Below are positions 12,689 to 41,450 of a stretch of 64,000 bases of DNA, piece after piece. Every line of letters starts with the position of its first letter. Positions within the stretch are counted from its first letter, which is position 1. Source of the DNA: Terriglobia bacterium (GTDB lineage: Bacteria; Acidobacteriota; Terriglobia; Bryobacterales; Bryobacteraceae); the NCBI GenBank assembly GCA_020073305.1, contig JAIQFK010000034.1, forward strand, positions 1 to 64,000, read 5' to 3'. The translations under genes were made by a program, and so were the position numbers. The notes beneath the pieces were generated by a model. It was not told where the DNA came from. It worked only from the letters and a program-made list of their open reading frames with translations, and did not search any database.

Positions 12689-14581
12689 CTAGTGCGTCTT
12701 GACAGCCGTCGCTGGGATCTGCGGCAGCGCGAAGGCCACGTACGCGCCGCGGATCTTCGCCTGCGTCGCCGGAGCCATTCCCGCTTGGGCGGCTGCGCAG
12801 AAGACAACGTACTCCCGGCCGCCGGCTTCGTAAACCGCGGGCATGCCCTCGAGCGCCGCATCCAGTTCGTGTTCCCACAGCACCCGCCCCGTCTCAGCGT
12901 CCAGCGCGCGGACCTTGCGGTCGCGCGTGCCTGTGAAGATCAATCCTCCGGCGGTCACCACCGGACCCACTTTCGGAAAATGCGCTCCCGTGTTCTTGAT
13001 GCCTTTGGCGGCCAGGTCCGGGACTTCTCCCAGAGGAATTTTCCACTTGATCGTCCCCTGGTTCAGGTCATACGCGGTTAAGGACGTCCACGGTGGAGCG
13101 ATCGGCGAAAGCCCGTCACTTGCGATCATGAAGCCAAATCCGCTGTAGTAGTGCTCGCCAACCGGCGAAGCGAGCTTCTTATCCGCTTCCGGGTCTTGGG
13201 CGAGTTTTAGCATCGACGGAAGATCCTTCGACACGACGAATAACGTGCCGCTTTCCGGATCCACCGCGGCTCCTCCCCAGTTGGCTCCGCCGTTGTTGCC
13301 GGGCATCTCGACGGTGTTGCGCCGACCCGGCGGGGTGAACATTCCCTCATTCCGCGCGCTCAGAATCTCATCGCGGAACCGCGCACGGTCCTCCGGACTC
13401 AGAAAAGGACTGAGATCTTCAACCGTGAACTTCTGTCGCGCAAAAGGCGGCGGCTTCACCGGAAACGGCTGCGTCGGCCAGGTCACTTCTCCCGGCATGT
13501 CGGACCGCGGCACGGGCCGCTCCTCGATGGGCCACAGCGAAACGCCCGTTACGCGATCGAACACCCAGACAAACCCCTGCTTGGTCACCTGGGCGACGAC
13601 GTCAACCGGCTTTCCTTCATGCCGTACGGTGAGCAGTTTCGGAGCCGTGCCGTTGTCGTAATCCCAAATGTCGTGATGAACCATTTGAAAATGCCAGAGG
13701 CGCTTGCCGGTTCTGGCGTCCAGAGCCAGCAGACAGTCGCTGAAGAGATTTGCTCCGCTGCGGTCCACGCCGTAGAAGTTATACTTCGCGCTCGCCGTGG
13801 GCACGTAAACGATACCGCGGCTCTGGTCAAGCGAAAGCTCACTCCAGGCATTGGCCCCGCCGACTCGCGTCCATGCGTCCTTCGGCCATGTGTCGTACCC
13901 GAATTCGCCCGGACGCGGGATGGTGTGAAAGGCCCACACCAGCTTCCCCGTGCGTACGTTGAACGCGCGTATATCGCCGGGCGCGGAGCCGTACCCTTGA
14001 TTCGTAGCTGACCCAAGGATCAGTAGATCTTCGAACACTCGCCCGGGTGTTGTGGATTGCACCAGGCTGATCTTCCGGGGATCACGATCCAGTCCTTCCT
14101 TCAGATCGACACGGCCCTGGTTGCCAAACGACAGAATCGGGCGTCCCGTCCGCGCGTCAACCGCTCGCAGGAAGTGGTTGCTCGCAAACAGCAGCCGCCG
14201 TTCCGACCGGTCCTTGCTCTCCCAATAGTTAATCCCGCGGTCCGTGATGATGTTCGTGCCGGGCTCGGCCGCGTGTGCCCAGATCTCTTTGCCCGTCACC
14301 GCATCGAGCGCGATGATCGAGTCGTTCCTGGCCAGGACGTACATGACACGATCGACCACAATGGGATTGAAGAAGTACTTATTGCCGTCGTTGGTCGGAT
14401 AAGACCAGGCGACTTCGAGCTGGCTCACGTTCGAGCGGTTGATCTGCGCCAGGGCGGAGTATTGCGCGGCATCGGCTGCGCCTCCGTAGTCGCTCCATGT
14501 TTTGTGGTTTTGCGCCGCGAGCGGCAGCGCTGCCAAAAGCACACAGCACGCAGCCTGCGTCCACCCAGTTGGCCGGATCAA
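12689..14581 (-). CDS. Exported PQQ-dependent dehydrogenase-like quinoprotein
   Basis: 630 aa with a signal peptide (CCVLLAALPLAAQ) and an eight-bladed quinoprotein propeller: repeated blade motifs such as ALDAVTGKEIWAH, VDARTGRPILSFG, NVRTGKLVWAFH, ALDARTGKRLWHF and ALDAETGRVLWEH. The block WHFQMVHHDIWDYD and the overall blade order match membrane-type glucose dehydrogenase-like and other PQQ enzymes that oxidise sugars or alcohols in the periplasm. There is no N-terminal five-TM domain and no cytochrome domain, so electrons must go to a separate acceptor. The start is a TTG (14579-14581); an ATG just upstream is in another frame. No PQQ biosynthesis genes are in the window. Confidence 0.88.
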   Translation of the reverse strand: MIRPTGWTQAACCVLLAALPLAAQNHKTWSDYGGAADAAQYSALAQINRSNVSQLEVAWSYPTNDGNKYFFNPIVVDRVMYVLARNDSIIALDAVTGKEIWAHAAEPGTNIITDRGINYWESKDRSERRLLFASNHFLRAVDARTGRPILSFGNQGRVDLKEGLDRDPRKISLVQSTTPGRVFEDLLILGSATNQGYGSAPGDIRAFNVRTGKLVWAFHTIPRPGEFGYDTWPKDAWTRVGGANAWSELSLDQSRGIVYVPTASAKYNFYGVDRSGANLFSDCLLALDARTGKRLWHFQMVHHDIWDYDNGTAPKLLTVRHEGKPVDVVAQVTKQGFVWVFDRVTGVSLWPIEERPVPRSDMPGEVTWPTQPFPVKPPPFARQKFTVEDLSPFLSPEDRARFRDEILSARNEGMFTPPGRRNTVEMPGNNGGANWGGAAVDPESGTLFVVSKDLPSMLKLAQDPEADKKLASPVGEHYYSGFGFMIASDGLSPIAPPWTSLTAYDLNQGTIKWKIPLGEVPDLAAKGIKNTGAHFPKVGPVVTAGGLIFTGTRDRKVRALDAETGRVLWEHELDAALEGMPAVYEAGGREYVVFCAAAQAGMAPATQAKIRGAYVAFALPQIPATAVKTH

Positions 14582-23423: not shown

Positions 23424-23870
23424 TCAGCGGTACACAGGCCTTGCCGGGGGCACGACGGTGTATCGAGACTGCAGGAACGCCACGGTATCGACCAACTGCT
23501 GCACCGTCATCCGGTCCCTGTAGTCCGGCATGCGCGATTTGCCGCCAACGGTGATCAGATCTCTGGGGTAGGGAGCCAGCGCATACGACGGGTTGACAAT
23601 TGACGTTACCAGATAACCATCGGTCACTTCCGTGGGTACCTGGCCTCCCAGTGCGACCATCACGGGAGCCTGGACCGCAGGCTTGGGCAGGTTTACGCCG
23701 GATACCTGGTGGCACTGGTAGCATCCAAGAGCAACAAAAGAAGCTTTCCCATTTTCTACATCACCATCCAGCGGCAGGCGAAAGCCCGCCGATGAGTGGC
23801 GCCCGGTATCGCACGCTACAACTCCACCGAGAAGCAGGATGATCGGTAACAACTTAAGTGAGCTCAACAT
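23424..23870 (-). CDS. Mono-heme c-type cytochrome, lipoprotein
   Basis: 148 aa. A lipoprotein signal ends in GGVVAC (Cys20). The heme attachment motif is CYQCH (50-54) and SRMPDY supplies a likely distal methionine, as in class I cytochromes c. It would be anchored to the membrane on the periplasmic side and shuttle electrons. The start is decided by an almost ideal ribosome binding site, AAGGAGGTGA, four bases before the ATG. It is monocistronic; the next gene upstream is divergent and over 400 bases away. Confidence 0.9.
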   Translation of the reverse strand: MLSSLKLLPIILLLGGVVACDTGRHSSAGFRLPLDGDVENGKASFVALGCYQCHQVSGVNLPKPAVQAPVMVALGGQVPTEVTDGYLVTSIVNPSYALAPYPRDLITVGGKSRMPDYRDRMTVQQLVDTVAFLQSRYTVVPPARPVYR

Positions 23871-24277: not shown

Positions 24278-24937
24278 ATGACTCTGCGCACCCTCCAGTG
24301 GGCCGTCTTCCTGACGTTCTGTACCCTCCCCGGTTCGGGAGAACCCATGACTGCCGGCGCTTGCACGGCTCCGGTTAGCGTGTACACGCACTTCGAACAA
24401 GCATATTCCGAACCGCTGTTGGAAAACATGAAGGAAGAAGTCCGTTCGATTATGGCTCCGATCGGTCTTGAGCTCCAGTGGCGCACCCTCGATGCCCACG
24501 CGCCCACGGGCCTGTCCAGCGAATTGGCCGTCGTGTCATTCAAAGGCAAGTGCCGGATGGACGATCTGCTGCTGCCGTCTGTCAACTCGGGGAATCTGGG
24601 CTGGAGCTATGCGCTGGAGGGCCATGTCTCTCCGTTCAGCGATGTGGACTGTGACCGCGTCCGGCAGTTCATCAATCCTTCTGTGCTCCACGCAAAGTGG
24701 GTAGATCGCGACGCCATCCTCGGACGGGCACTGGGCCGGGTTCTGGCTCACGAACTGTATCATATCTTCGCGGACAGCAAGCGGCACGCACGGGTCGGGC
24801 TGGCGAAGGCCTTCTTCTCACCTCGTGATCTGGTCTCCGATCATTTCACCCTGGAGGAGAGAGACGCCGAAACGCTGCGTAATGGAAAATTGCACGGTGT
24901 ACTCGAGCAGGCTGCGTCGTTCCCCAGTTGTCCCTGA
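24278..24937 (+). CDS. Secreted putative HExxH metalloprotein, acidobacterial hypothetical
   Basis: 219 aa with a signal peptide (LQWAVFLTFCTLPGSGE). The central feature is a helix carrying HELYH (158-162) followed by His170, i.e. HExxH-x7-H, in VLAHELYHIFADSKRHAR. This is a plausible zinc-protease site (gluzincin or related), although the downstream ligand spacing is not that of a family I can name. Four or five Cys could form disulfides after export. AAGGAGGT precedes the ATG by about 12 bases. The 3' end nearly meets the converging binding-protein gene (7-base gap). Confidence 0.6.
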   Translation: MTLRTLQWAVFLTFCTLPGSGEPMTAGACTAPVSVYTHFEQAYSEPLLENMKEEVRSIMAPIGLELQWRTLDAHAPTGLSSELAVVSFKGKCRMDDLLLPSVNSGNLGWSYALEGHVSPFSDVDCDRVRQFINPSVLHAKWVDRDAILGRALGRVLAHELYHIFADSKRHARVGLAKAFFSPRDLVSDHFTLEERDAETLRNGKLHGVLEQAASFPSCP

Positions 24938-24944
24938 CGCGCCT

Positions 24945-26780
24945 TCAACGCCCTTGTGGTTCGCCGTTCGAAGCGAACCGCATCTCGCCCAACTGCATTC
25001 CTGAGGACAAGACCTCGCGCAGCCGCCCCCGGTTGGCGCCGGCTTTCTCTGCCGCGTCGAGAAGGCAGCGCAGCGCCTCCCGCACGGAGGTATCGGGCGG
25101 GACGCGAAAGACCCACGGAATATTCACAGACGTCAGGCTGTGATCCGCCGAGATCGCAATCAGCGGCAGAAAAGCCTTGACCGCGAGTTGTTCGGCCAAG
25201 TGGCTCGAATTACGGTCGGTCGCAATCAATCCCAGCGCCTGGTCTTCGTAGATCAGCTTCACCAGGTCGTGCGAGGCCTTGCCCCACGGGACATCGGAGG
25301 GGATGGCGGTGAGACGGTAGCGGCCTGCATAGCGCTCGATCCATGGTGAAAGGCTGGCGGCCAGCCGCGCGGCGTCGGGTCCGAAAATTCCGATCCGCAC
25401 CGGTCCCTGCGGACAATCTGCCACAGGCGGCCCGTTGTACGAAACCGGCTTCTCCCCAACCCGCGCGTAGGGAATCTGCATCGGATAGCGGCGGAATTCA
25501 TACTTGCCGGATTTCACCGTTGCCAGGTACATCGGAACGATGTTCTTGCAGTTCGGGTCGAAGACCATCTCTCCGGTTACGCCTTTATAGCGCTCGAGAC
25601 CCGTAAGAGCATCCCGAATCCGGCCGCGATTCAGACCCGCGCGGCAGATGGACTGGAGCAGGATATTCATCGTGTCATAGGCGAGCGAAGCGAATACTTC
25701 GGGACGCTGGTTGAATTGCTTCTCGAAACGCTGGTTGAACGCGAGCCAGGCCGGATCGTCGCGTGTCAGGTCGAAAGGAAATACGATCTCGAGTCCTTCA
25801 GCGGCTTCACCTGCGACGCGCAGCAGGTCGTCACCCAGCACCCGGTAGCCGCCGAACACGCGCTGCTTCATGCCTATCTCGCGCAACTGTTTCAGAATGG
25901 CGCCGGCCGCTGGCGCATCGCCCCAAATGACAATTCCATCCGCGCCCGATTCACCGATGATCCGCAACTGGCGCCGAAAATCCGTATCGCCAGGCAGGTA
26001 TTTCTGCTCGATAAGAACCGGGTGGCCGAGCCTCCGCGAGGCGTCTTTGAACTTCAACACGCCGAAGCGGCCATACCGGTCGTTGACGCGTAGCAGCGCG
26101 ATTTTCTGCAGGCCGAGGTCGGTGTAGATGCGGCGCGCCAGCGTGTAGCTTTGCACGCGATCGTCCTGGATGGTGGTGAAGTACCAGGGAATGATGGTTT
26201 CGGGGATGGTAGGATCGGTCGCCGCGCTGTTGACGATGGGCACTTCCGCTTTGAGCGACACGCGCAGCGCGATATGCGTGGAATCGCCGCTGATCGATCC
26301 GAGCATGGCCCAGACCTTGTCGTCGTAAGCCATCTTGACGATCTCGTTGCTCGACGCTCCCCAAATCGCCTGGTCGTTGTGGACCATCAGCTTGAACGGT
26401 TTGCCGCAATAGCCACCCGCCCGGTTTCGCTCGTCGACCGCCAGTTGCGCGCCAGCGAGCATCATCTTGCCGAGTTGCTCCTGTGGGTGATTCTCCACCG
26501 GACCCAGGAAGCCGATGCGGACCTCGTCAATCTCGCCGGGTTTCACGGTTTCGACGTCGCGCGCGCCGCCGTTGTATTCCACCAGCTTGGTGTAGTGCTC
26601 GTAGTACGGCGTCGTGAACTTCGAAAACGGACGCAGATCCGCCGGTGCGTCGGCATACGGACGGAGCTCGCGATTCTGCGGCGGGCCGGGAGGATTGGCG
26701 CCACAGGAACACGGCGCCGCACCTTGTGCCCAGGCGAGCGCCACCGGAACGAGCGCGATCAGCCACCGCGGAGACATCAT
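24945..26780 (-). CDS. Periplasmic leucine-binding-protein-like receptor with an extra half domain
   Basis: 611 aa from the first of two adjacent ATG codons (26780; the second, 26777, has better spacing to AGGAGG). A signal peptide (WLIALVPVALAWAQ) precedes a Cys-rich CSCG start. Residues about 75-440 form a complete type I periplasmic-binding fold (VRIGFLGPVEN ... AMLGSISGDSTH ... NDRYGRFGVLKFKD), as in branched-chain amino acid receptors. A second N-lobe copy follows (VRIGIFGPDAARL ... LIATDRNSSHLAEQ ... IPWVFRVPPD). No transporter permease is nearby, so it may act as a sensor or ligand carrier. Its ATG overlaps the RidA stop by 4 bp. Last gene of a six-gene operon. Confidence 0.88.
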   Translation of the reverse strand: MMSPRWLIALVPVALAWAQGAAPCSCGANPPGPPQNRELRPYADAPADLRPFSKFTTPYYEHYTKLVEYNGGARDVETVKPGEIDEVRIGFLGPVENHPQEQLGKMMLAGAQLAVDERNRAGGYCGKPFKLMVHNDQAIWGASSNEIVKMAYDDKVWAMLGSISGDSTHIALRVSLKAEVPIVNSAATDPTIPETIIPWYFTTIQDDRVQSYTLARRIYTDLGLQKIALLRVNDRYGRFGVLKFKDASRRLGHPVLIEQKYLPGDTDFRRQLRIIGESGADGIVIWGDAPAAGAILKQLREIGMKQRVFGGYRVLGDDLLRVAGEAAEGLEIVFPFDLTRDDPAWLAFNQRFEKQFNQRPEVFASLAYDTMNILLQSICRAGLNRGRIRDALTGLERYKGVTGEMVFDPNCKNIVPMYLATVKSGKYEFRRYPMQIPYARVGEKPVSYNGPPVADCPQGPVRIGIFGPDAARLAASLSPWIERYAGRYRLTAIPSDVPWGKASHDLVKLIYEDQALGLIATDRNSSHLAEQLAVKAFLPLIAISADHSLTSVNIPWVFRVPPDTSVREALRCLLDAAEKAGANRGRLREVLSSGMQLGEMRFASNGEPQGR

Positions 26781-27268
26781 CCCTCCTGCCGGTTGGTTCG
26801 GAAGATGGCGATGGCTTCGAGTTCGACGAGAAGGTCGGGGCGGCAAAGCTTTGCCTGAATGCCCGTCGATGCCGGCAGCGGATCGAGTCCCTGCGCCTGG
26901 TAGAAAGCGGTGCGCTCCTCGTTGAAAGCCACGTAGTCGCGATCGATGTCGCGCAGGTAGCACGTGGTGCGCACGATGTCCTTCCAGGTGGCGCCTTCAG
27001 AAGCCAGCAGGCTCGAAATGTTCTGGAACGTGCGGCGCGCCTGAGCGCGGAAGTCGCCCACATGTAGGGTCTCGCCGTTGGGTCCTACACTCGCCGTTCC
27101 GGAGATGAGCAGAATCGCCAGGCCCCCCAGGTCCAGCCGCAAGCCCCTGGAAAACGAGCTGGGTCGCGCGTAGTGATACGCCTCATTCAGCACCTCCGGA
27201 GCCGTCATGGGCTTCTTGGTGATGCTGGTCGCCACCGAAAACTCTTCGAGCACTTCAGGTATCGTCAT
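26777..27268 (-). CDS. RidA/YjgF-family protein (putative enamine/imine deaminase)
   Basis: 163 aa from the ATG at 27268, which has GGGAGG at proper spacing. The Rid core is seen in LLISGTASVGPNGETLHVGDFRAQARRTFQNI, then TCYLRDIDRDYVAFN, DPLPASTGIQAKLCRPDLLVELEAIAI. The usual RidA Arg that binds the carboxylate of 2-aminoacrylate (in the R-x-C motif near the end) is not obvious: here KLCRPDLLVE. The enzyme family hydrolyses reactive enamines/imines in the cytoplasm. It has no signal peptide although its operon neighbours are exported, which makes its placement notable. Fifth gene of the operon. Confidence 0.87.
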   Translation of the reverse strand: MTIPEVLEEFSVATSITKKPMTAPEVLNEAYHYARPSSFSRGLRLDLGGLAILLISGTASVGPNGETLHVGDFRAQARRTFQNISSLLASEGATWKDIVRTTCYLRDIDRDYVAFNEERTAFYQAQGLDPLPASTGIQAKLCRPDLLVELEAIAIFRTNRQEG

Positions 27269-27315
27269 ATGAAAACCTCCCCATGTAAGAATCCGCAGGA
27301 TCGTCTGCGGCCCGG

Positions 27316-28383
27316 CTATTTCATCCGTATCCCGTGACTGAGGCCTTTGGCCGTCGCCACCCAAATGTCGTCTCCATCAAAATCGACGCCGAGCACGTAG
27401 TGGTGCGCCGGCGCGGTCGCGGTTTCAACGCGCGTTACATTTCCCGCCGCATCGCGAACCAGCATCTCCGGCTTGTGCGTGTCGAGCGCCGGGCGGTAAA
27501 CCGCCCAGTTTTCACCGTCGTAGTACGCCAGACCTTTGTCGGTCGAGAACCAGGCGTGATTGCCGTCCACCCCTTTCACCTGGTTCAGAAAGTTGCTGGG
27601 CAGCCCGCTGTCTTTTTCAAGAAAGTTCTTCCAGTTGCGCCCATCGTAGCGGCTGGCTCCGAAATAGGTCGCCACCCACAGGATCTTTTCCTTCTCCATG
27701 TAGCTAACCGAAGTCGTGATTTCATGGATGAGACCCTGGTCCTTGTACAGGACCATTTCGGTCTCGCCGTCCGGATCGTTGTAGTCTTTCCAGCGCTCGG
27801 TTTTCACGTCGTACTCGAGCACGCCGCCGCCCCAGACCGCGTAGTACACCTTGCTCGGCGTGGCGTTGACCGCGTAGGTCCAGATTTCGTACATCGGAGT
27901 GTTGCGCTCGTTGAACAGGCTCCATTGGCCGGTGCGCGTGTTCAGGCGGCTGCCCCCGGCCGCGGTGGCAACCCACACATCATCTCCTTGGACTGCGACG
28001 CCATAAACCACGTCGTTGGCCAGGCCGCTCGTGAGTTGTGTATAGGTATCGAACCGGCCGGCGGAAAAGCGGCTGAGTCCGCCCATGGTGGCGATCCAAA
28101 CGTCGCCAGTCCGCTTGTCGGGCGCCACATAAAGCACCGCGCGGTGCGTCAGGCCGTCCTCGGGACGGTACACCTTCCACTTGCCGTTTTCGTACAGGCC
28201 GAGGCCGTTCTCCGTCGCCGCCCACACGCGTTTGCCATCCACCGCGACGTTGAACACGTGGTTGTCCGGCAGGCCATTCTCGGTGGTGAAATTTTCCCAG
28301 CGATAGGTGGGCATGTCTGGCCGGCCACCCGTGGCGGCGGCCGCCGGCGCCAGAACTAACAGGAGTGTGAGAATCGTTCTCAT
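27316..28383 (-). CDS. Exported two-component-regulator-type (Reg_prop) beta-propeller
   Basis: 355 aa with a signal peptide (TILTLLLVLAPAAAAT). Repeats such as GLPDNHVFNVAVDGKRVWAAT, GLTHRAVLYVAPDKRTGDVW, GLANDVVYGVAVQGDDVWVAT and GLPSNFLNQVKGVDGNHAWF are Reg_prop blades (about seven), the same as in the sensor part of hybrid two-component systems. There is no TM helix or kinase behind it, so it is a free-standing periplasmic propeller, probably for ligand or protein binding. Its ATG overlaps the stop of the preceding heme-propeller gene by 4 bp, so the two are translationally coupled. Confidence 0.88.
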   Translation of the reverse strand: MRTILTLLLVLAPAAAATGGRPDMPTYRWENFTTENGLPDNHVFNVAVDGKRVWAATENGLGLYENGKWKVYRPEDGLTHRAVLYVAPDKRTGDVWIATMGGLSRFSAGRFDTYTQLTSGLANDVVYGVAVQGDDVWVATAAGGSRLNTRTGQWSLFNERNTPMYEIWTYAVNATPSKVYYAVWGGGVLEYDVKTERWKDYNDPDGETEMVLYKDQGLIHEITTSVSYMEKEKILWVATYFGASRYDGRNWKNFLEKDSGLPSNFLNQVKGVDGNHAWFSTDKGLAYYDGENWAVYRPALDTHKPEMLVRDAAGNVTRVETATAPAHHYVLGVDFDGDDIWVATAKGLSHGIRMK

Positions 28384-30227
28384 AGAGTTTTCAGATACTC
28401 AATCAGATCGTTGAGTTCGTCTTTCTGGAGGTCGTTCGTCACCCCGTGCGTGTCCTGGGGATTGAAGACCGTCCAGATTTCCTCGAGGGACCGCGCCGAA
28501 CCGTCGTGCAGGTACGGCCCCGTCAATACGACATTCGTCAGTTGCGGCGTGTCGATCAGCGGCGACCGGTCGGTCGGCTTGCCGGTACCGACGTCCGCCA
28601 GTTGCTGATTGGTGTAATGCGGTCCGGAGTGGCACACCGCGCACTGATTCTTCGCGGGAATAGGCGTACCGTTCTTGCGCCTCGTACGCTCGAAGATGAC
28701 TTTGCCGCGCTCCTGGGCCGGAGTCAACTCGCCGTTGCGGTAACGGTTCGGCCGCAATGGGATCGATTTGATGAAGCTGACCAGGTCATTGAGCTGCCAG
28801 CCATCGTAGCTTTCCGAACGGTAGAAGAACTTCTCTGTGCGCGGGCCGCACTCGGTTTCGAGATTCGGATTGGCGCCATTCCATTTGAACGGCGCAGTGT
28901 CGGCGACGTCCTCGAGCAGCCGGTTGTCGACGTAGTCCTTGCCGAATCCGTCCGGCTCCAGGTCCCAAGAGAGGCCGTCGAAGGTCGCCTCGATGTGACA
29001 GTTGGCACAGCCGAAGTGACCGTGAAAAGCAAAGCCTGCGTTGAAAAAGAGACGCTCGCCACGCCGCTCCGGCGTCAAAGTAGCGGGCCCGCCGAGCGAG
29101 AGGTCGCTGACTACCCGCCGAGCCGCGGTGTCGATGACGGAGATCGTGTCGCCAGTACGATTTGCGACGTAGAGCCGCTTCCCATCGGGTGAAAGCGTTA
29201 GGCCTTTAGGACCGTGGCCCACCGGAACGCGCGCCACGACATAATTGGCCGAGGCCGAAAGATCGTTGGCGAGCGCGCGCCGCTCGGCCGGGCTTAAAGT
29301 CCGGATCAGCGCCAGCAGCCGGCCGATGTCGATGACGGTCACGCTATCCGAGCCGGTGGTCGAAACGTAGGCCACGCTCTTGTCTCGCGCCATCGCGATC
29401 GCGAACGGCGGCGTGTAATAACGGTCCAGTTCATCGATGGAGATCTGCACGACTTCGCCCACGTCTTCGCCGAACAGGGAAATCGAGTTTCCGATGACCC
29501 AGCCGTGCTCGACGTGCGCGAGCGGAACCAGATTCTTGGGACGCATCTGCGCGGCCATGCCCAACCGCCCGTCCGCCGAAACGGCCACGTGGAATACGCC
29601 GGCCGCATTGTGCAGACGGTATCGCTCGGCAACCACCTGCCGCGCGGCGTCGATCACCGTGATCTCCGATTCTGGTGTCGCGCGGAACTTGGCGATGTTC
29701 GGGTAGATGTGGGTACAGTAGATCCGGCTTCCGTCCGGCGACAAAGTCAGATAGGCGGCGCCGCGTCCGGCGAGCAGGCGCTTGCTTTCAAGACCACTCG
29801 CCAGGTCGACCACCGAAACGTCATTGCTGAGCCGGTTGGCGACGAAAAGGAACCGGCCCTCACGGTCTGAAATCGCCGCGTTCGGCTCAAACCCCGCGGG
29901 AAGGGTGCGCACCACTTGGAGGGAAGAGGTATCCAGATCCGAGATCGTGTCGCTCCAGGAATTCGCGACGTACAGGTGTTTGGCGTCCGGCGATAGCGCA
30001 AGACTCTTGGGCACTCGGCCCACGGGAGTGCGGTGGAGAATTCTTCCTGAACCGAGGTCGTAGGTCACGACTTCGTCGGTCCCCTCGCAAAGCGCGTAGA
30101 GCCGCGAGCCGTCAGGAGAGATCACCAGTTCAATGGGCGAGGGATAGCGTGCCGCGGGGGGCTCCGAGGCCATCGCAGCCAGCGCCGCCACTGCATTTGC
30201 GGCCAGCAGGAACGCTCCCCCGCGCAT
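28380..30227 (-). CDS. YVTN beta-propeller fused to a di-heme cytochrome c peroxidase/MauG-like domain
   Basis: 615 aa, signal peptide at the N-terminus. Residues about 30-390 are YVTN-type blades (SPDGSRLYALCEG, SPDAKHLYVANSWSDTI, SPDGKRLYVANRTGDTISVID). The C-terminal third carries two heme c motifs, CANCH (about 407) and CAVCH (about 528), with TNVVLTGPYLHDGSARSLEEIW, the signature ending of the bacterial di-heme peroxidase/MauG superfamily. Such enzymes reduce peroxide or perform long-range oxidation of partners in the periplasm. The propeller fusion is seen in related predicted oxidases. Three bases separate it from the CRTAC1 gene upstream. Confidence 0.92.
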   Translation of the reverse strand: MRGGAFLLAANAVAALAAMASEPPAARYPSPIELVISPDGSRLYALCEGTDEVVTYDLGSGRILHRTPVGRVPKSLALSPDAKHLYVANSWSDTISDLDTSSLQVVRTLPAGFEPNAAISDREGRFLFVANRLSNDVSVVDLASGLESKRLLAGRGAAYLTLSPDGSRIYCTHIYPNIAKFRATPESEITVIDAARQVVAERYRLHNAAGVFHVAVSADGRLGMAAQMRPKNLVPLAHVEHGWVIGNSISLFGEDVGEVVQISIDELDRYYTPPFAIAMARDKSVAYVSTTGSDSVTVIDIGRLLALIRTLSPAERRALANDLSASANYVVARVPVGHGPKGLTLSPDGKRLYVANRTGDTISVIDTAARRVVSDLSLGGPATLTPERRGERLFFNAGFAFHGHFGCANCHIEATFDGLSWDLEPDGFGKDYVDNRLLEDVADTAPFKWNGANPNLETECGPRTEKFFYRSESYDGWQLNDLVSFIKSIPLRPNRYRNGELTPAQERGKVIFERTRRKNGTPIPAKNQCAVCHSGPHYTNQQLADVGTGKPTDRSPLIDTPQLTNVVLTGPYLHDGSARSLEEIWTVFNPQDTHGVTNDLQKDELNDLIEYLKTL

Positions 30228-30230
30228 GAA

Positions 30231-31853
30231 TCACTTCTCCTCGACGGTAACGACGCGATCCACCGGCAGGTTTTCGAGTATCTGCCTGGTTCCGCTTGGC
30301 CACGTGATCGTGAGCTTGTCGATTTTCGTCGCACTACCCAGGCCGAAATGCACCCGCGGATCATCCTGCGACAGGTAGCCGGATCCGGCCGTGCGCTCGT
30401 GCTGTTGCCGGCTGCCTCCGGCGAGCACTTCCACCTGCGCGCCGATCCCGTCGCGATTGCTCTTGTGACCGGCCAGCTTCACCGAGATCCAATGGTTCGA
30501 GACCGGCGCGACATTGTGCAGCAGGAAAGCCGGACTGCCGAGGTTGACGACAAAAGCGTCGATCCGGCCGTCGTTGTCGTAGTCCGCGAAGGCCGCGCCC
30601 CGGCCGACGCTCTTCACTTCGAAGAAGGGTCCGGCCGGGAGCGACACGTCTTCGAATTTCCAGTCACCCATGCCCCGGAACACCGAATGTTCCTGCGGAA
30701 TCAAGTGGATCAATCCGCCATGGACGATGAAGATATCGTCACGGCCGTCATTATCGAAATCATGCACGCCCGTGCCCCAACTCACGTACTGCGCGGCGAG
30801 CTGGGAGATGCCGGCGCGCTCGGTGACGTCCTCAAACTTGAGCTTGCCGAGGTTTTTCATGAGCCGGTTGTACTTGGAGTCCGAGACCCACAGATCCACG
30901 CGGCCGTCATGATCGAAGTCCCGGAAGACGGGCCCCATGGCCGACGTATTCTCGCCGCTTTGCCCGTAAGCGACCCCGGCGGATTCCGCAATCTCCTTGA
31001 ACGTCCCGTCCTTCTGGTTGTGAAACAGAAAGTTCTCCGTCTTGTCGTTGGCGACGTAGATGTCGGGATAGCCGTCGAGGTCGAAATCAGCCGCGGTCGC
31101 GCCCATGGTGCGGCCTTTGTAGCGGGCGATGCCCGATTTCTCGCTCACGTCGGTGAACGTGCCGTTGCAGTTGTTGTGCAGCAGCACGTTGCTTTGCGGT
31201 TCGTAATCGAGCGGGCCGGGATAGTTGTCGGCGGCGTAATAAGCGTGGTAGTCCGGATCGAATTTCACGTACCGGCCGACGAACAGGTCCACACAGCCGT
31301 CCCGGTCGTAATCGAGCCACGCGGCGCCGATCGACCAGCCAGGGACCTTGATTCCCGCCTTTTCAGTGGCGTCCTCGAACGTGCCGTCACCCTTGTTCCG
31401 GTAAAGAATGACGCGTCCGTAGCCCGTGACCAGCAGGTCGACGTTGCCGTCGTTGTCATAGTCGGCGGCGATGGCCGCCATGCTGAACAGGTTGCCGCCT
31501 ACACCTGCCTGCTCAGTGACGTCCGTGAATTTGCCGTTGCCCAGATTTCGGAAGAGGTGATTGTGCGGCGGGGTTTGGGGCAAATGGCGCAACGGGTAGG
31601 GGTGCATACCCGTTCCCAGCGGCTTTCCACTCACCACGTAGAGGTCCATCAAGCCGTCGTTGTTGTAATCAAACCAGACCGCTCCGGCCCCGGTGCTTTC
31701 CACGAGCGATCCCAGCTTCTCGGCTCCGAAACTGTGGGTGAATTGAATTCCGGCCTGTGCGCTAACCTCTTCAAAACGAATCGGGCAGGAGGCCGGCCGC
31801 TCGGCCGCGAGCGCCAGAAACACAACGGCAATCCCCCCCAGCACAGCCCTCAT
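30231..31853 (-). CDS. CRTAC1-family FG-GAP/VCBS protein with ASPIC/UnbV C-terminus
   Basis: 540 aa with a short signal peptide. Many FG-GAP repeats with Ca-binding D-x-D-x-DG loops (WFDYNNDGLMDLYV, ADYDNDGNVDLLV, YDRDGCVDLFV, DFDLDGYPDIYV, FDHDGRVDLWV, FDNDGRDDIFIV) build an integrin-alpha-like propeller; the last ~80 residues (GAQVEVLAGGSRQQHERTAGSGYLSQ ... VHFGLGSATKIDKLTITWPSG) are the ASPIC/UnbV domain. Secreted; binding role assumed. The domain also occurs near enediyne genes, but nothing else here suggests that pathway. It overlaps the upstream gene by 4 bp and lies in the same operon. Confidence 0.94.
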   Translation of the reverse strand: MRAVLGGIAVVFLALAAERPASCPIRFEEVSAQAGIQFTHSFGAEKLGSLVESTGAGAVWFDYNNDGLMDLYVVSGKPLGTGMHPYPLRHLPQTPPHNHLFRNLGNGKFTDVTEQAGVGGNLFSMAAIAADYDNDGNVDLLVTGYGRVILYRNKGDGTFEDATEKAGIKVPGWSIGAAWLDYDRDGCVDLFVGRYVKFDPDYHAYYAADNYPGPLDYEPQSNVLLHNNCNGTFTDVSEKSGIARYKGRTMGATAADFDLDGYPDIYVANDKTENFLFHNQKDGTFKEIAESAGVAYGQSGENTSAMGPVFRDFDHDGRVDLWVSDSKYNRLMKNLGKLKFEDVTERAGISQLAAQYVSWGTGVHDFDNDGRDDIFIVHGGLIHLIPQEHSVFRGMGDWKFEDVSLPAGPFFEVKSVGRGAAFADYDNDGRIDAFVVNLGSPAFLLHNVAPVSNHWISVKLAGHKSNRDGIGAQVEVLAGGSRQQHERTAGSGYLSQDDPRVHFGLGSATKIDKLTITWPSGTRQILENLPVDRVVTVEEK

Positions 31854-33184
31854 TTTTTGCCTTGCTTGCCGTTATGCACGGGGAGGGCCATCTTAACCGG
31901 CTCCTGGGTTCGGAGCAGCACTTCCGGCGCTCGGTTCTCGGGCGTGTGCTCCGGTCCGGCGTGGCAGCCAACGCAAACCCGCTGCTCCCCGCGGCGCGCC
32001 CAAAACCAGCCTTTTTCGGACGCGATGCTTTTTCCAATTGCATCGAGAAGTTCAAACCGGATTGGCGTCTCGCTTGGCACTTGCACGTAGAAGGAACCAT
32101 CTCGCTCCACGGGCGCCTGGCCGAGCACTACCGACACGCCTGAAGCATTCAAGGCCGAGACCCGAACTGCGGCGACAGAGCCAGCGGGAATAGTTTGTGA
32201 TCGTGAAACGTAGCTATTGAGGCAAAGCAGGTTCGCTCCCTGCCGGTCTCCGAGGCCTGAGGGGTGGCGCTTGGGCACGGTGTGGGGCCGGACGAGAACC
32301 GGCTGCAGGATGTTCGTCCCTTTGATGGCCAGCACAGTCTCCGGAAGACCTTGCCCCGGTCTCCAACGGTACAGACCGAATGACGCCGCGGCGTTGGAGC
32401 GGTAGCTGACGAGCCATTCTTCGGGAGAAATTTCTGCGGTCGGCCCAGCGAACTCTCCGGCGGTTGCCGCTAGTTCAACCTGTGTTGCCCGCGCTGACGT
32501 GAACCGGGCCAGGTGAGAGCCGGTTTGGAAGATGATATCTCCGGAAGACAATTCACGTCCGCGAGAGCGATCTCGCCCATGATCGCAGCGGTGGGTTTCC
32601 ACGCCGCTGCCGTCGGTGTAAACGGTGAAGAGATCGCGGGTTGAGGATTGCGCATCCGGGTGGGGAGCTTCGAACAAGACGCGGCCGTCGCGCAGCACGT
32701 CGCAGAGGATGTGATCTCCTGGCGCGTACGTCAAACGCAGCGGCGCACCGCCGTCGGGCAGCGCGGTCTCGATTTGAAATCCCTGGGGCGTGCGCCGGGC
32801 GTAGGCGATCCTTTCACCCGGCAGGTAAAACGGCGTGACCGCATCCTCGGCAAACGATGTGACGCGCCGCGGCCCACCGCCCGACAAAGGGATCTCCCAG
32901 ATTTGCCAGGAATCCGCCGGCTTCCGCTTTCCCGAAAACAGGACGCTCGTCCCGTCGAACGACACGGCTGCATCCGCGGACGCGGCGAATCCAGGGGCCA
33001 GCACGCGTTTGCGGCCGTTCGAGACAATTTCGAGGGCGGCGCCCGCCGGAAACCGCTCTCCACCGTGAAGCGAGGCGCGGCTATCGTAGCGCGGGGCTTC
33101 GGTATAAATGTACGGAACCGGAATGGGGGCGGCTCCGGACACTAACCGGCAGAGAACCACAAGGCCGAGGCAACGGCTGATCAA
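31850..33184 (-). CDS. TolB-like propeller with C-terminal c-heme (hydrazine synthase alpha-like)
   Basis: 444 aa, exported (leader CLGLVVLCRLVSGAAP). The N-terminal two-thirds has WD40/TolB-like blades (AAVSFDGTSVLFSGKRKPADSWQIW, DAVTPFYLPGERIAYAR, DHILCDVLRDGRVLFE). The C-terminal part contains VQVPSETPIRFELLDAIGKSI followed by WFWARRGEQRVCVGCHAGPE, with heme motif CVGCH near residue 402. That order resembles the middle domain of hydrazine synthase alpha subunits and related acidobacterial or planctomycete proteins; no claim of hydrazine chemistry is made. The start is TTG (33182-33184) with GGGGAT upstream. First gene of the six-gene operon. Confidence 0.8.
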   Translation of the reverse strand: MISRCLGLVVLCRLVSGAAPIPVPYIYTEAPRYDSRASLHGGERFPAGAALEIVSNGRKRVLAPGFAASADAAVSFDGTSVLFSGKRKPADSWQIWEIPLSGGGPRRVTSFAEDAVTPFYLPGERIAYARRTPQGFQIETALPDGGAPLRLTYAPGDHILCDVLRDGRVLFEAPHPDAQSSTRDLFTVYTDGSGVETHRCDHGRDRSRGRELSSGDIIFQTGSHLARFTSARATQVELAATAGEFAGPTAEISPEEWLVSYRSNAAASFGLYRWRPGQGLPETVLAIKGTNILQPVLVRPHTVPKRHPSGLGDRQGANLLCLNSYVSRSQTIPAGSVAAVRVSALNASGVSVVLGQAPVERDGSFYVQVPSETPIRFELLDAIGKSIASEKGWFWARRGEQRVCVGCHAGPEHTPENRAPEVLLRTQEPVKMALPVHNGKQGKK

Positions 33185-33235: not shown

Positions 33236-35056
33236 TCACTGCTCCCCAAGCGCGAAATTCACGCTCGCTTCTGAAATGACTTCGACGGGCTCTCCGTTGA
33301 GCAAGGTAGGCCTATAAACCCACTGGCTCAGGGCATCCCTGGCAGCTGCGACCAATAAAGGATGGCCACTAACCAGCGCTATATTGGACACCCGGCCATC
33401 CTTCCCGATGACAACCGTGAACCGAACCACTCCCTGGATGCGAGCCTGCCGGGCGAGAGGAGGATAAATCGGGTCGACCTTGGTGAGGAGATTCTTTTCT
33501 TGCAGTTGCGTTCCTATGCGAATGCGATCCGGCGCTGCCTGGCGTTCGGAGGATTGCAGACTCTGGCGGACCGCGGTCATGGCGAGGAGCGGATTGAGCG
33601 TGAGGCGGTACTCCCTGCTCAGCAGCGGGTCCGTAAATCCGAAGATGATGTTGTCGCCGACCCCTTCAATGTGGTGGTAGAGCCATTCTTCGAAGGGAGC
33701 TTGCCGGTCCTGGCCGCCGCCGGAGGGGTGAGATTCGATTTCATCGGGCGGCCCGAAGATGATATAAATGCGTCCGCGGTCCGTCTTCCAGCCAGGAAGA
33801 TCGATGGCAGCAAAACGTTCGTTTGCATAGGCGATCCGCCGGTAGTGTTCCTCTTTGAATTCGTTTTCCGGCGTACCGGGAGTTGGATCGCGCCGCAGCC
33901 AGAACTGCACGATGAAGTTCTCGCGTTCTTCATCGGCGGTCAGTGCTTTGAAGGCAGCGCGCTCTTTATCGTCGATGATGTAGACCACGTCCTGATTCAG
34001 CCATTTGTCGTAAGGAGAGGTCTGGCCCGCCTGCGATTGCGCAGTAGCGATACTTTGCTGGGGCGCCGCTTGCCATGCAACTAGAGCCACCGCGGCGTTT
34101 GCCATGAGGATTATGGCGGCGAACAACGGCGTCCAAGCGCCGCTTGTCCCTTGGGGATATAGCAGACGACGGATGCGTTTCACGAGACTCCCTCCTGTAG
34201 CTGCCACGGCCGGTTCGCGGCTGGAGCAACGGTTTTGTTCCAGGGCGGTTAGCGCAACGGCGTACTCGTGCGGGTTGCCGCTCATGGCGACCACCACATC
34301 GTCACAGCAGTTTTCGCGCTCGGCGCGGATCACCCGGGACATCCACCAGACCGCCGGGTGATAAAACAAGAGGCCCTCCACCGATCGCTGGAATACATTC
34401 ACGAGGTAATCGTAGCGGCGGATATGCGCCAGCTCATGCAGCAGGATGGCTTCGATCTGTCCGGCGGGCAAGCCGGCCAGCAGTCCGACCGGCATCAGAA
34501 TGAACGGGCGAAAATGGCCAACGACCGTGGGCGCCTCGGCCAGGCAGGACTCCAACAGCAGGACCGGGCGCGACAGGCGCAACCGGGCGCTCAAGCGAGC
34601 GAGTTCCTTTTGCCACCGTTCGGGTGCACAACACACGCCGCGGCGGCGCAGCCGGCATACCGAGATCCAGCCGGCCACATGCCCCAGGTAAAACATCCAG
34701 ACGCCTGCGACCCAGAACGGCGCAAGCCAGGGTACGACTGCGGCAAGGCCCGGATTCGACGGGCTAGACGCATCCACGCCGGCGCGAACATTCCGGGCGG
34801 GGAAGACGAGGGTCCTTTCGGTCCGCAGGCTGTCGACGCCATCCGGCATCACACGAATCAAAGTGAGGCCGAATCCGCCGAGCATCAAAAGCATCGCCAC
34901 ACAAGCCGCGGCATAGCGGGCGCGCGGTGACCGCAAAGCCGCCAGCGCCGCCGCGAGCGCAGCCGAGAGGATCGCGCCCTCCCATAACGAATGAAGCAGC
35001 GTCCAACCGATCGCGCCGGCCAGCGGAGTCTGAACCCAGGTTTCGAGAAGCCTCAT
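33236..35056 (-). CDS. BlaR1-type M56 metallopeptidase with GWxTD and TonB C-terminal domains
   Basis: 606 aa. Residues 1-330 are a BlaR1/MecR1-like membrane M56 peptidase: TM helices near 15-35, 47-67 and 108-128, the zinc site HELAH (about 207-211) with the RRYDYLVNVFQR follow-on and AERENCCDDVVV; then a TM helix near 320. Residues about 345-460 match a GWxTD domain (YDKWLNQDVVYIIDDKER ... GWKTDRGRIYIIFGPPDEIE). The last ~90 residues are TonB-C-like (YPPLARQARIQGVVRFTVVIGKDGRV ... WVYRPTLLNGEPVEV). Its ATG overlaps the BlaI stop by 4 bp. It presumably relieves BlaI repression on sensing a signal; no beta-lactamase gene is adjacent. Confidence 0.93.
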   Translation of the reverse strand: MRLLETWVQTPLAGAIGWTLLHSLWEGAILSAALAAALAALRSPRARYAAACVAMLLMLGGFGLTLIRVMPDGVDSLRTERTLVFPARNVRAGVDASSPSNPGLAAVVPWLAPFWVAGVWMFYLGHVAGWISVCRLRRRGVCCAPERWQKELARLSARLRLSRPVLLLESCLAEAPTVVGHFRPFILMPVGLLAGLPAGQIEAILLHELAHIRRYDYLVNVFQRSVEGLLFYHPAVWWMSRVIRAERENCCDDVVVAMSGNPHEYAVALTALEQNRCSSREPAVAATGGSLVKRIRRLLYPQGTSGAWTPLFAAIILMANAAVALVAWQAAPQQSIATAQSQAGQTSPYDKWLNQDVVYIIDDKERAAFKALTADEERENFIVQFWLRRDPTPGTPENEFKEEHYRRIAYANERFAAIDLPGWKTDRGRIYIIFGPPDEIESHPSGGGQDRQAPFEEWLYHHIEGVGDNIIFGFTDPLLSREYRLTLNPLLAMTAVRQSLQSSERQAAPDRIRIGTQLQEKNLLTKVDPIYPPLARQARIQGVVRFTVVIGKDGRVSNIALVSGHPLLVAAARDALSQWVYRPTLLNGEPVEVISEASVNFALGEQ

Positions 35057-37299: not shown

Positions 37300-40200
37300 C
37301 TATCGTGAAGCCGCAATCAACGGATGCACGAAGCGGATCGCCGGCCGCGAATTGTACTTCCGGCGGTAGGCCTGGTGGGAAGCGTCGTCGGGGTAGTGTT
37401 CGGCGGCCGGATACGGATAGCGGCTCATGGAGTGGAACGGAAGCGGCTCCACCGTTTGCGAAAACGCGGTGTTCGCGTCGCTGTCCTTGGCCCAGCCGTC
37501 CACCAGCAGCAGGAAATCGCGGCGCCAGTTCGGAGCGAGCGATGGAAGTCCGCGGTTTGCGAACTGCAGGCGCAGCTCATCACCCGACCCCATGATGACG
37601 AAGCGGTCGTCGGCATCGTTCACCAGTTCGCGGACATCGCCGTAGCGTGTGTAAAGCCCCGGCGTCTGGTTCCAACGGGCCTCACTCGTCCATCGCGCAT
37701 AGGCGAACGACTCGGGATGCTCGCGCCGCGGATCCACCACTGCACGCGAAAAGCCGCGCAGCCGGACGTCAGCGGACTCGACATCGAGCGGCGTGAACCG
37801 CACGGGCGGCGGCCCAGGCTGTTCGCTAAAGAAAATCTCATCCCAGTAAACACAGAGGTTGGTGACGATGCGAACCTCGCGCGACGCAGAGAGGAACTTG
37901 CCGGAAAGATCGACGGCGATGGTTTTGGGCTTGCCCGCCGGAATCCCCATGTCCGCAATCGCCGTCCGCCACTGGCCTGATTCATCTTTCACCTGCAAGT
38001 ACGGCAGAACGAGGCCTTTGGTGGCGCCCTGCGATGCGCCCAAGAACGTGCTGCCGTCCGCCCAATCCACCCAGCCGTTCAGGAACAGCACGGCCTGGTT
38101 GTCCCGGGCTGCCTCATGGCCGAGGTCGAGCGTCAACGAATGCAATTCGGCGACCCCGGCGTAGTTGTGCCGGAAGCCGCCGGCGTAGACGCCATCGCGC
38201 CGGAGGATGCTCGCGAGAACATCGCGGCCCTGATCGTCGTGCGCGGCGACCGGTGCAATGCGCGTGCTCACGCCGAACAAACGGAACTCCGGGAAGGGCG
38301 GGGACTTGAACTTTTCGTTGGTGAAGATCTCTAGGGCACGAGGATGGTCGAGTGCGATCAACCGCACCTGGTCGAGGTAGGAAACCTCGTGCAACTCCTC
38401 CGTGATGCGGACTTCGTAATGCTCGTCCACAGGCGCTAGAGCCTCGGCTGGGATTTGAACATACTCGTCGTGATCCACCGGAAAGTAATTTCCGCCGCCC
38501 GAGCTGGCCCCGAGCGGCGCCACCCCCAGGACGTCGGTGATGAACTGGAACTCGCGGCCGTTCCAAGTGAAAATCATGGGGCAGGAACCTGAGAGTCTCG
38601 GCGCTTCCTTTAACAACGCAGCGCGGGCGACCGGCTGGTTCGGCTCGTTTTGGATCAAACCGTTCGGCCAACTGATGCGCACCGTGTCGATGAGTTTGTT
38701 CGCGCCCAGGCCGAACACGAGCGGAGTTCCCTGGTAGACCTGTTTTTGGTAGTGCTCGCCGGCTTTGACCTCGACTTCGGCACCCTCCGCCATTTTGAGG
38801 TTCTTGACGCCGGTGAGCGCAACGCGCAGCCATTGGTTCGCCGTGGAAGTTCGATTCAGCAGGAGATGAAGGCTGCCATCGGGCGCGACAGCGGCGATGT
38901 CGTCGCGGCCATCCGCATCGAAGTCGGCATGCGTCCAGGCGACGGCCGGAGACAGTGGGGCGGGCGATTTCGATTTCATCAGTTCACCGAGCCCTTGATT
39001 GCGATACACGGCGTCGCCGGCAATCAGGTCGGAGAGTCCGCGGTTCTCGAGGTCGGAAAAAACAAACGGTCCGAATGCTGCCGTGGGCTTCGGCTCGAAC
39101 TCGCCGCGGCGGTTCATAACCAGCGATATGCCGTCGCGCGTCCGAAAGGCGAAATCGATCCAGCCGTCGTTATCCAGATCGACGGCATTCAGGCCCGCAG
39201 CGCCGGCGGGAATGGCATCAAGCGCGGTGGCTTGGAACACGCCGCGCAATTGATCGCGATACAGCATTCCCTTGCGGTCCGCGTAGGAGACCGCGAGGTC
39301 GATGCCCTTGGTGTCGGGGACGACGCGGAACGCGGCGGCGGAGATCGCGTGCCCGTGCGCGAAGGGAAAATGCGCGGTGTAATCCGCAAATCCGGCCTCG
39401 CCTTCATTCCTCAGTAACACGGAGTTTTCGCCGAGCAGGAAGAGGTCGAGATCGTAGTCGTGGTCGAAATCGAGCCAGACAGCAGATTCGTAACGTCCCG
39501 CGGGTATGGGCGCTTCCTTCGGCTCAAAGCGGCCCTTCGTGTTGTGGTAAAGACGCGCGCCGGCTTCAGTGAGCACGCAGAGGTCGGGGAGACCGTCGTT
39601 ATCGAAGTCGCCGGCCGCGACCGAAATCACATCTGTGAGATCGGCCAGGCCGGTATCCGCCACTGGCGCGCTCCCACGGCGATACAGAAGGATGCCGGTC
39701 CGCGACCAGACGAGCAGGTCCGGGTTGCCGTCGCCATTTGCATCCAGGACGAGCATCCCGGCGCCCTTTGCGTCCACGGTTCCGGTGAGTATGCGATCGT
39801 CGAATTGCAAAGCGGCGGGCGAAGAGGCATCACGCGCCGCTGGATGTGCCTGGGCGGGATCGTAAAGTTCCGCATAGAAGCACCACTCCATGTCTTCGGT
39901 GTCGTCGGCGGCCTTCTGTTGCGCCTTAGCCTGACGAAAATCCGCCAGTGCGAGGCGAGCGGCCGCATCATCGTCGCCTAGTCGGTGGTGGTTGTAAATC
40001 TGGAAGCGCGGCGCCACCAGTTTTGGATCGAGCTTCGCGGCGATTTCAAATTGCTTCAGCGCTTCCGCAGCGCGGCCGGTGAGACCGTACAACAGGCCGA
40101 GATTGTAATGGGAAACGGGCTCGTCCGGCGTCAATTCGACCATGTGCTCGAACTGCCGGATCGCCTCCGGATACCGCCGCTCGTGCTTGTAGGCGATGCC

Positions 40201-40527
40201 CAGGTTGAACCAGGTGTGGGGCACGCTCGGGTTCTGCTTCTGCGCTTTTTGGAGTTCCACGATTCCGCGTGTTCTGTCGCCGGAGCGCAATAGCGCGAGC
40301 CCGTAATTGAGGCGGTCGCGGAAAGAATCCGGCGCCAGATCGAGAGCCTTCTTGAGCTCCGCGGAAGCCTCGGCGAGAGTGGTCGGCGTTTCAAAAAGGG
40401 CTTTGCCGAGGTTGCGGTGACGCCAGAGTTCTCTTTCGTTCACTGGCCCGGTGCCGGCCGACTGCAATAGGAACAGCGCGGAACCGCCAATCGCCAACGC
40501 GCAGAGGGATGCCGCGAAATGCTTCAT
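37300..40527 (-). CDS. Large exported TPR / FG-GAP (CRTAC1-like) protein
   Basis: 1075 aa. A signal peptide ([14 protein letters not shown]) is followed by about five TPRs (about 35-190, e.g. [28 protein letters not shown]), then FG-GAP repeats (about 240-590; [48 protein letters not shown]), an ASPIC/UnbV-like stretch ([33 protein letters not shown]), and about 400 residues of beta-rich sequence found in this acidobacterial type ([22 protein letters not shown]). Secreted or periplasmic. It overlaps the DAHP synthase gene by 4 bp at its start, so the two are translationally coupled. Role unknown. Confidence 0.85.
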
Positions 40528-41450
40528 CGGGGCGCGGCGACGGGTGTCTCGTTCAGAGCGCGCTCATCGGTCCAAAGCTGGAAATAGGGCTTGAGGCGCT
40601 GCATCATTTGATTGAACTGCGGAATGGACAGGGATTGGACTCCATCGCTGAGCGCGGTTTTGGGAGATGGATGGACCTCTACCAGCAGACCGTCGGCGCC
40701 GATCGCCACGGCCGCGCGCGCCAGCGCCGGAACCAGGCTACGCCGTCCGGTCGCGTGGCTTGGATCGACAATCACGGGCAAATGAGTAAACTGATGCAGC
40801 AAGGGGACGGCAACGATATCACAGGTATTCCGCGTCAGCTTGCCAAACGTCCGGATGCCTCGCTCACAGAGAATAACATTGGGATTGCCCTTCGCCAACA
40901 ACGCTTCAGCCGCCTGCAGCAATTCTTCAACGGGGGCGACCATGCCGCGCTTGAGTAGTACGGGCCGCCGGCACCGGCCCAAGGCGGCGAGCAGCGCGGC
41001 GTTCTCCATGCTACGTGTGCCCACCTGGACGATGTCCGCATATTCGGCGACCAGCTCGACTTGACTGTCGCTCATGGCCTCGGAAACCACCGGCAGGCCG
41101 AACGCATCGCCCGCCTTTCGCAACAGCTTGAGCGCTTCGAGTCCGAGGCCCTGGAATGCGTAAGGCGAAGTGCGCGGCTTGAACCCGCCCCCGCGCAGGA
41201 CGCGTGCGCCTGCCCGCGCCACCGCTTCGGCCGTGGCCATCACCTGGCGCTCAGATTCGACCGCGCAAGGCCCGGCCATCACGACGAAGCGGTCTCCGCC
41301 GATCTCAACACCGTTTACATGTACCCGGGTACGCTCGCCGTTAGAGCGCCTTCGGACGTGCTTCAGGGATGCCAGTAAGTCGTATGCGGCCCTCTCGGCA
41401 TCCGCCTCCAGGGAGTCGATCGCGTCGAACTGAAATTCTTCAAGATCCAA
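40524..41450 (-). CDS. aroF: 3-deoxy-7-phosphoheptulonate (DAHP) synthase, AroF/type I-beta
   Basis: 308 aa, cytoplasmic TIM barrel that joins phosphoenolpyruvate and erythrose 4-phosphate, the first step of aromatic amino acid biosynthesis. Family motifs: [58 protein letters not shown]. The ~55-residue N-terminal extension before [12 protein letters not shown] is consistent with the type I-beta forms with a short regulatory or helical lead. The start is TTG with GGAG five bases upstream. It precedes the giant FG-GAP protein gene with a 4-bp overlap, an unusual pairing. Confidence 0.95.

Follow-up and report, generated by a model that had tools for sequence, protein, structure and literature searches.

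Proteins resembling hydrazine synthase (HZS) occur outside the anammox bacteria. Gene clusters made up of an alpha gene, a CRTAC1 gene and a fused beta-gamma gene, some of them with two binding-protein genes, were described previously, and Paludibaculum fermentans was named as a host (PMC12758564; this paper and the others cited here by PMC number are drawn on from parts of their text). The authors of a second study proposed a wider enzyme family with other substrates (PMC10732223); both papers leave the substrates of the HZS-like proteins outside anammox bacteria unknown. The stretch of DNA analysed here (64,000 nucleotides, referred to as the window; contig JAIQFK010000034.1 of assembly GCA_020073305.1, Terriglobia bacterium, from soil) carries such a cluster within a six-gene operon, the genes of which are designated A to F. 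On the evidence of their sequences, A and C are almost certainly HZS relatives, and operons of this type are often linked to a gene for DAHP synthase. DAHP synthase is the entry enzyme of the shikimate pathway. We propose, with a probability of roughly 45%, that a chorismate-derived compound serves a secreted HZS-like heme complex that has dedicated binding proteins.

The open reading frame (ORF) check placed six ORFs on the minus strand in the order A-B-C-D-E-F, with spacings from A to F of -4, +3, -4, +47 and -4 bp; these coordinates confirmed the gene number, order and spacings given in the preliminary description of the window. A (31850..33184, TTG start) is an HzsA-like secreted TolB-type propeller with an HZS_alpha middle domain. 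B (30231..31853) is a CRTAC1 family protein, with FG-GAP repeats and UnbV_ASPIC in the domain scan. C (28380..30227) is an HzsB-HzsC-like fusion of a 7-blade YVTN-type propeller and a di-heme MauG/CCP-like domain (CCP_MauG). D (27316..28383), the marker of our genome scan, is a secreted Reg_prop-type propeller according to the domain scan. E (26777..27268) is a cytoplasmic protein with a single YjgF/RidA fold (Ribonuc_L-PSP) and without the RidA catalytic Arg. F (24945..26780) is a LivJ-type periplasmic binding protein (Peripla_BP_6) followed by a shortened second binding-protein piece. Signal-peptide-like starts, judged by eye and without a predictor, were seen in A, B, C, D and F; E had none. 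The extracytoplasmic heme chemistry suggested for this operon is supported. Internal promoters, which would have split the operon into separate units, were sought with a scan for the sigma-70 type, which found 0 as against 2.0 in shuffled sequences. A domain scan of the ten proteins of 21.8-35.1 kb revealed no ABC permease or ATPase, as expected from the earlier proposal of a receptor in place of a transporter.

The kinship of A and C with HZS was overlooked in the preliminary description. A contains the HZS_alpha middle domain PF18582 (62.8 bits; cut-off 26.6) and one CxxCH motif (CVGCH), and its profile matched HZS alpha (5c2v_A) with an E value of 1.8e-49 over the propeller and the heme alpha-I region. 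C, in which a beta propeller and a di-heme gamma part are present as one fused protein, matched HZS beta (5c2v_B) over the whole propeller (single-sequence E 7.5e-42, profile E 1.2e-64) and HZS gamma (5c2v_C) with E values of 5.8e-23 and 1.1e-36, respectively. Scores against the full family models lay far below the cut-offs: 52.4 bits for A with NF052339 (alpha; cut-off 800) and 207 bits for C with NF052342 (beta-gamma; cut-off 1250). A surface-layer YVTN protein matched the C propeller about equally well (3.3e-42), so this propeller alone is little proof of HZS kinship; what indicates the kinship of C is that the match runs from end to end, that a di-heme part is included and that A adjoins it.

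Comparison of active-site positions gave a mixed result. The CxxCH of heme alpha-I was kept in all 26 A proteins, and the third heme cysteine, gamma-Cys165 (window C460), in 23 of 25 C proteins. No Tyr corresponding to HZS Tyr591 followed the heme motif in any of the 26 A sequences, and Trp (window Trp449) stood at the position of gamma-His144 in 25/25 C proteins. The C-terminal heme alpha-II domain was absent; window A has 444 aa and stops shortly past its sole heme motif. For the zinc-binding Cys303 of alpha, a nearby Cys was present in 15/26 A proteins (window C200), the column lying inside an unaligned insert. Two CxxCH motifs were found in window C and in 16 of the 25 C proteins, and ten in the other 9; in these counts the two forms match clades II and I of PMC12758564, respectively. 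The residue losses in A and C agree with that paper, except that the third heme cysteine, described there for clade I, is present here in the two-heme type of the window as well. A true hydrazine synthase was rejected on residues (no alpha Tyr, Trp for gamma-His144), and the module is, judged by these positions, not a hydrazine synthase. An enzyme of the nitrogen cycle, whether a non-anammox hydrazine synthase or an HZS variant that handles NO or hydroxylamine, would fit the alignment of A and C with HZS alpha, beta and gamma and the kept alpha-I CxxCH and third cysteine. However, we consider it very improbable: the Tyr and His positions are changed throughout, the window has no heme alpha-II domain, PMC12758564 concludes likewise for clades I-III, and the linkage to DAHP synthase would be left unexplained.

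To define the conserved gene set, two collections of relatives were used. The search with A gave a match in 84 of 121 relatives, mostly through shared propeller repeats, and 28 places plus 7 weaker ones were read. From the scan of genome contigs with the D profile, 80 relatives out of 354 were retained, every one of them bearing an acidobacterial name. Of the 115 loci L033-L147, 58 remained once 13 duplicates had been taken out together with the loci that lack D (L035, L061-L067) or have short flanks; all 58 were selected via A or D and cannot count as a neutral sample. All 58 carry A, B, C, D and F; E is present in 52/58 and DAHP synthase in 31/58, as befits the single conserved transcription unit postulated earlier. 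With S for DAHP synthase and f for a second binding protein, the gene orders were SABCDEF in 21 loci and, with an additional reversed B, in 2 more; ABCDEF in 11; ABCDESFf in 7; and rarer others. The order B-A-C with two binding-protein genes, which PMC12758564 describes for clade III, was found in L199-L201. Dozens of genomes share the gene order of the operon, more than by chance; the lack of conservation beyond this genome that the preliminary description had named as speaking against it was not observed. Among 396 Acidobacteriota genomes that were drawn, 20 contained A and 19 contained D, all of the latter being among those 20. The E family was present in 59 of the 396 at E<=1e-15, including all 20 A-positive genomes; at a threshold of 80 bits, which was chosen only after the list was seen, it was present in 32, of which 20 were A-positive. 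Searched with D, plasmids yielded a single distant match, in Rhodothermus (28 percent).

Other HZS-like arrangements also occur in the phylum: L064, L065, L066 and L067 carry pairs of A-like and C-like genes without D. L035 and L260 (G022) have A and B but no C-F across 20 kb downstream, by gene loss or misassembly. Upstream of the cluster in L200 (2079-3368), a separate gene with eight CxxCH motifs resembles the N-terminal extension of the ten-heme C.

DAHP synthase was found unsought, as the only recurrent extra ORF family (32/103 sequences). Beyond it and the six operon families, no ORF cluster occurred in more than 13 of the 103 sequences; minor neighbours recognised by eye were GMC oxidoreductase-like (8) and SDR-like (7) proteins. 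In many Terriglobia, 21-256 bp separate A from a DAHP synthase gene upstream of it; in another group this gene is between E and F. In the deeper families, L199 has it upstream of the B-A pair, L200 and L202 have it after f, and L201 has it between F and f, which makes five positions in total over all loci read. Away from the cluster, E adjoins DAHP synthase in L212, L219, L223 and L227 and, by coordinates, in G151:C22. The genome of the window has four DAHP synthase matches. One of them (40524..41450, minus strand, PF00793) groups with the copies that immediately precede A in L103 and L114 (support 100/94). In a tree of 54 DAHP synthases, the linked copies formed groups of 12 rows (100/99), 4 rows (97/93) and 14 rows including that of the window (92/74), and 24 unlinked copies fell apart from these three groups. 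Either the enzyme was recruited repeatedly or the link outlasted repeated rearrangement; both point to a shared function of DAHP synthase and operon. The genomic link between cluster and DAHP synthase is strong, and the reactions proposed below are what we infer. A functional tie of the cluster to the shikimate pathway is very probable. The DAHP synthase gene of the window overlaps by 4 bp a gene for a TPR and FG-GAP/UnbV protein (37300..40527, minus strand), a putative member of the system; in 37300-41450, DAHP synthase is thus tied a second time to a CRTAC1-type protein.

E differs from RidA at the catalytic position. The catalytic Arg is essential in RidA, and about 10% of RidA proteins carry Ser instead (PMC4433059). 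In all 23 E proteins Arg105 of RidA is replaced by Ser134, which is invariant together with G57, G136, C142, R143 and E149; judged by these residues, E is not a working RidA. G136, G57, C142 and E149 correspond to G173, G240, C327 and the catalytic E334 of Hyg5, the first three of which carry the characteristic chorismatase residues over to Hyg5 (PMC7170507). All 23 E proteins matched the FkbO/Hyg5 chorismatase model weakly. Structural comparison confirmed the YjgF fold (TdcF, Z 15.2, rmsd 2.2, 123 residues aligned). Window E has a single domain of 163 aa, as against two YjgF-like domains in FkbO and Hyg5; two-domain proteins occupy the E slot in L198 and L201. When the E profile was compared with these two, positions 72-140 matched the N-terminal domain and positions 18-60 and 140-156 the C-terminal domain, which indicates that a single E chain holds both half-site motifs. 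A symmetric E trimer could join the two motifs. A tree placed the N-terminal piece of a chorismatase-like protein (L163) within the E clade; its branch was very long and the bootstraps were unsettled. We give an even chance to the prediction from these residues that the substrate of E is chorismate or closely related to it.

F was modelled with AlphaFold. The model has one full domain (approximately residues 85-432) and a second piece of the size of one lobe (approximately 460-605), which may be a degraded copy. The binding protein had been called duplicated; one full domain is indeed present, but the second piece is shortened. Arg314 of F is invariant (23/23) and lies beside the position of the acid that contacts an amino group. 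This position is acidic in 8/23 proteins and Tyr in the window. Together, the invariant Arg and the mostly non-acidic neighbour lean against amino acids or amines, and name no ligand. The Foldseek list for F also holds binders of 4-hydroxybenzoate, p-coumarate and 3-hydroxybenzoate.

The preliminary description interpreted the operon as a module that oxidises an amine or another small substrate to a reactive imine, for which RidA would be needed. E does have the RidA fold, F belongs to the LivJ family and C resembles MauG. However, the Arg is Ser in 23/23 E proteins, the acidic amino-group residue is present in just 8/23 F proteins, and the partner gene encodes DAHP synthase, not an amine enzyme. 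In addition, imine and E would sit in different compartments, because E has no signal peptide and the heme proteins look exported (by eye). This interpretation can be given hardly any weight.

E-family genes have further neighbours. Proteins of ~780-830 aa with one CxxCH are encoded beside E in L194 (7219-9702), L212 (2735-5233), L213 (2157-4631), L217 (1094-3469) and L222 (6528-8858); the four that were scanned (L194, L212, L213, L222) contain PD40 and TPR. This suggests that the PD40/TPR one-heme proteins are a second type of heme protein served by E. It is also a hint that secreted heme proteins beyond those of the operon may make use of the aromatic. Near E in L208 (3419-5357) are genes for prephenate dehydratase and UbiA. 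Upstream of a two-domain E in L221 (4343-4924) is a Flavoprotein-family gene, UbiX-like by eye; by eye, one is present in L219 also.

We propose that an extracytoplasmic HZS relative, formed by A and C with the propellers B and D and the binding protein F, would be served by the shikimate pathway as follows. Gene linkage shows that the cluster comes with E and a dedicated DAHP synthase. The chorismatase-like E would convert chorismate or a close relative to a small carboxylate, aromatic or dihydro-aromatic in nature and most probably a hydroxybenzoate. The product would leave the cytoplasm and be held by the binding proteins F and f. The hemes of A and C may then oxidise it, reduce it or use it as a redox mediator. 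An action of the heme complex on what E produces is put forward tentatively. The complete statement, in which Acidobacteriota HZS relatives would work on or with a chorismate-derived aromatic by means of a new one-domain chorismatase (E), a dedicated DAHP synthase and paired binding proteins, is doubtful when all its parts are taken together.

Several observations weigh against a chorismate-derived compound serving the complex. DAHP synthase is lacking from 27/58 loci and E from six, and in the window the DAHP synthase gene is not adjacent but 7.3 kb upstream of A. The unlinked label requires two changes in the DAHP synthase tree, and there may accordingly have been fewer independent recruitments, combined with losses. 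E-family genes occur without A in 39/59 genomes at E<=1e-15 and in 12/32 at 80 bits. E149 is found in ordinary RidA too, and window E scores 51.4 bits with TIGR00004, 44.5 with RutC and 39.5 with TIGR04444 (cut-off 325), which places it about equally near RidA and chorismatase. E forms its own clade in the tree; the best 50 matches listed in the fold comparison were RidA-type entries only, with no chorismatase. We know of no chorismatase with one YjgF domain. The best Foldseek and sequence matches of F are amino-acid binders (4gnr), and the operon contains no exporter for the proposed product.

Two alternatives retain the tie to aromatic metabolism. In the first, the heme complex has its own outside substrate, such as a lignin-type aromatic or peroxide, and never meets the product of E; E and DAHP synthase would adjust the supply of aromatic amino acids or quinones or sense chorismate-derived metabolites. 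The pairing of E with DAHP synthase in places that lack the cluster, and the UbiX-like, prephenate dehydratase and UbiA neighbours of E-family genes, are in its favour. However, the E family is present in 20/20 A-positive genomes and E is in the operon in 52/58 loci, beyond a house-keeping need, and we regard this alternative as possible but unlikely. In the second, E and DAHP synthase make a small aromatic that the secreted heme proteins incorporate as a cofactor, with C as a MauG-like maturase. C is MauG-like, and E stands beside an unrelated-looking propeller-TPR protein with one CxxCH; the binding proteins F and f would nevertheless be left unexplained, no conserved acceptor residue or precursor protein emerged, although no search aimed at one was made, and this alternative is improbable.

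Other genes of the window were considered as members of the system. The cytochrome c gene at 23424-23870, the gene at 24278-24937 and the upstream BlaI/BlaR-like genes were rejected, as they were not recurrent near the clusters in gene-order strings. Just upstream of A (33236-35056), a single gene fuses Peptidase_M56 (BlaR1), GWxTD and TonB_C. A PQQ-domain protein of the alcohol dehydrogenase type is encoded at 12689-14581, ~17 kb from A.

The first domain of F has the fold of LivJ-type and aromatic-acid binders (4gnr, 4evq, 4q6w); F differs from these in the absence of neighbouring transporter genes, the invariant Arg314 near the ligand position and the fused second piece. E shares the fold of the RidA imine deaminases, in which the Arg that is Ser in E is essential (PMC4433059). 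If our proposal is correct, one of the Rid-type proteins lacking the Arg, a group called mysterious in that paper, would gain a function. E resembles the FkbO/Hyg5 chorismatases (5ag3, 4bps; PMC7170507) in the positions of the two Gly, the Cys and the Glu and in carrying both half-site motifs. In contrast to them it has one YjgF domain and scores far below the family cut-off.

The core of the cluster had already been described, so the earlier statement that no pathway with this gene set is known holds only in part. Clades I and II of PMC12758564 have the same order of alpha, CRTAC1 and fused beta-gamma genes as found here. Clade II lacks heme alpha-II and extra hemes, as does the type in the window, and clade III has two binding-protein genes, as in the loci with F and f. 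Trp at gamma-His144 and the absence of alpha-Tyr591 are shared between its HZS-like proteins and the present operon. The operon extends this core with the Reg_prop propeller, E, F and the linked DAHP synthase; in the text of that paper as available to us, binding proteins are present, and RidA, DAHP synthase and a regulator-type propeller are unnamed. We found no paper that unites an HZS-like cluster with E and DAHP synthase in a search that left subscription papers and preprints outside, and the wider operon is therefore absent from the literature searched. In the Phycisphaerae (PMC10732223), an hzsA-like gene stands directly upstream of a fused hzsBC-like gene, a likeness to the present operon; the part of that text available to us contains no CRTAC1 term and proposes no aromatic link. 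The pair of E and DAHP synthase offers a concrete substrate class, chorismate and hydroxybenzoates, through which the ancestral function of hydrazine synthase becomes approachable. If the complete statement given above holds, HZS would descend from secreted heme complexes that handled an aromatic metabolite. Compared with anammox HZS (5c2v), the operon lacks the key active-site residues and the alpha-II heme, has beta and gamma fused and has other partner genes. The two share the heme motifs and the domain order of the alpha N-terminal part, beta propeller and di-heme gamma, and the loop-bearing propeller of HZS aligns end to end with the operon protein.

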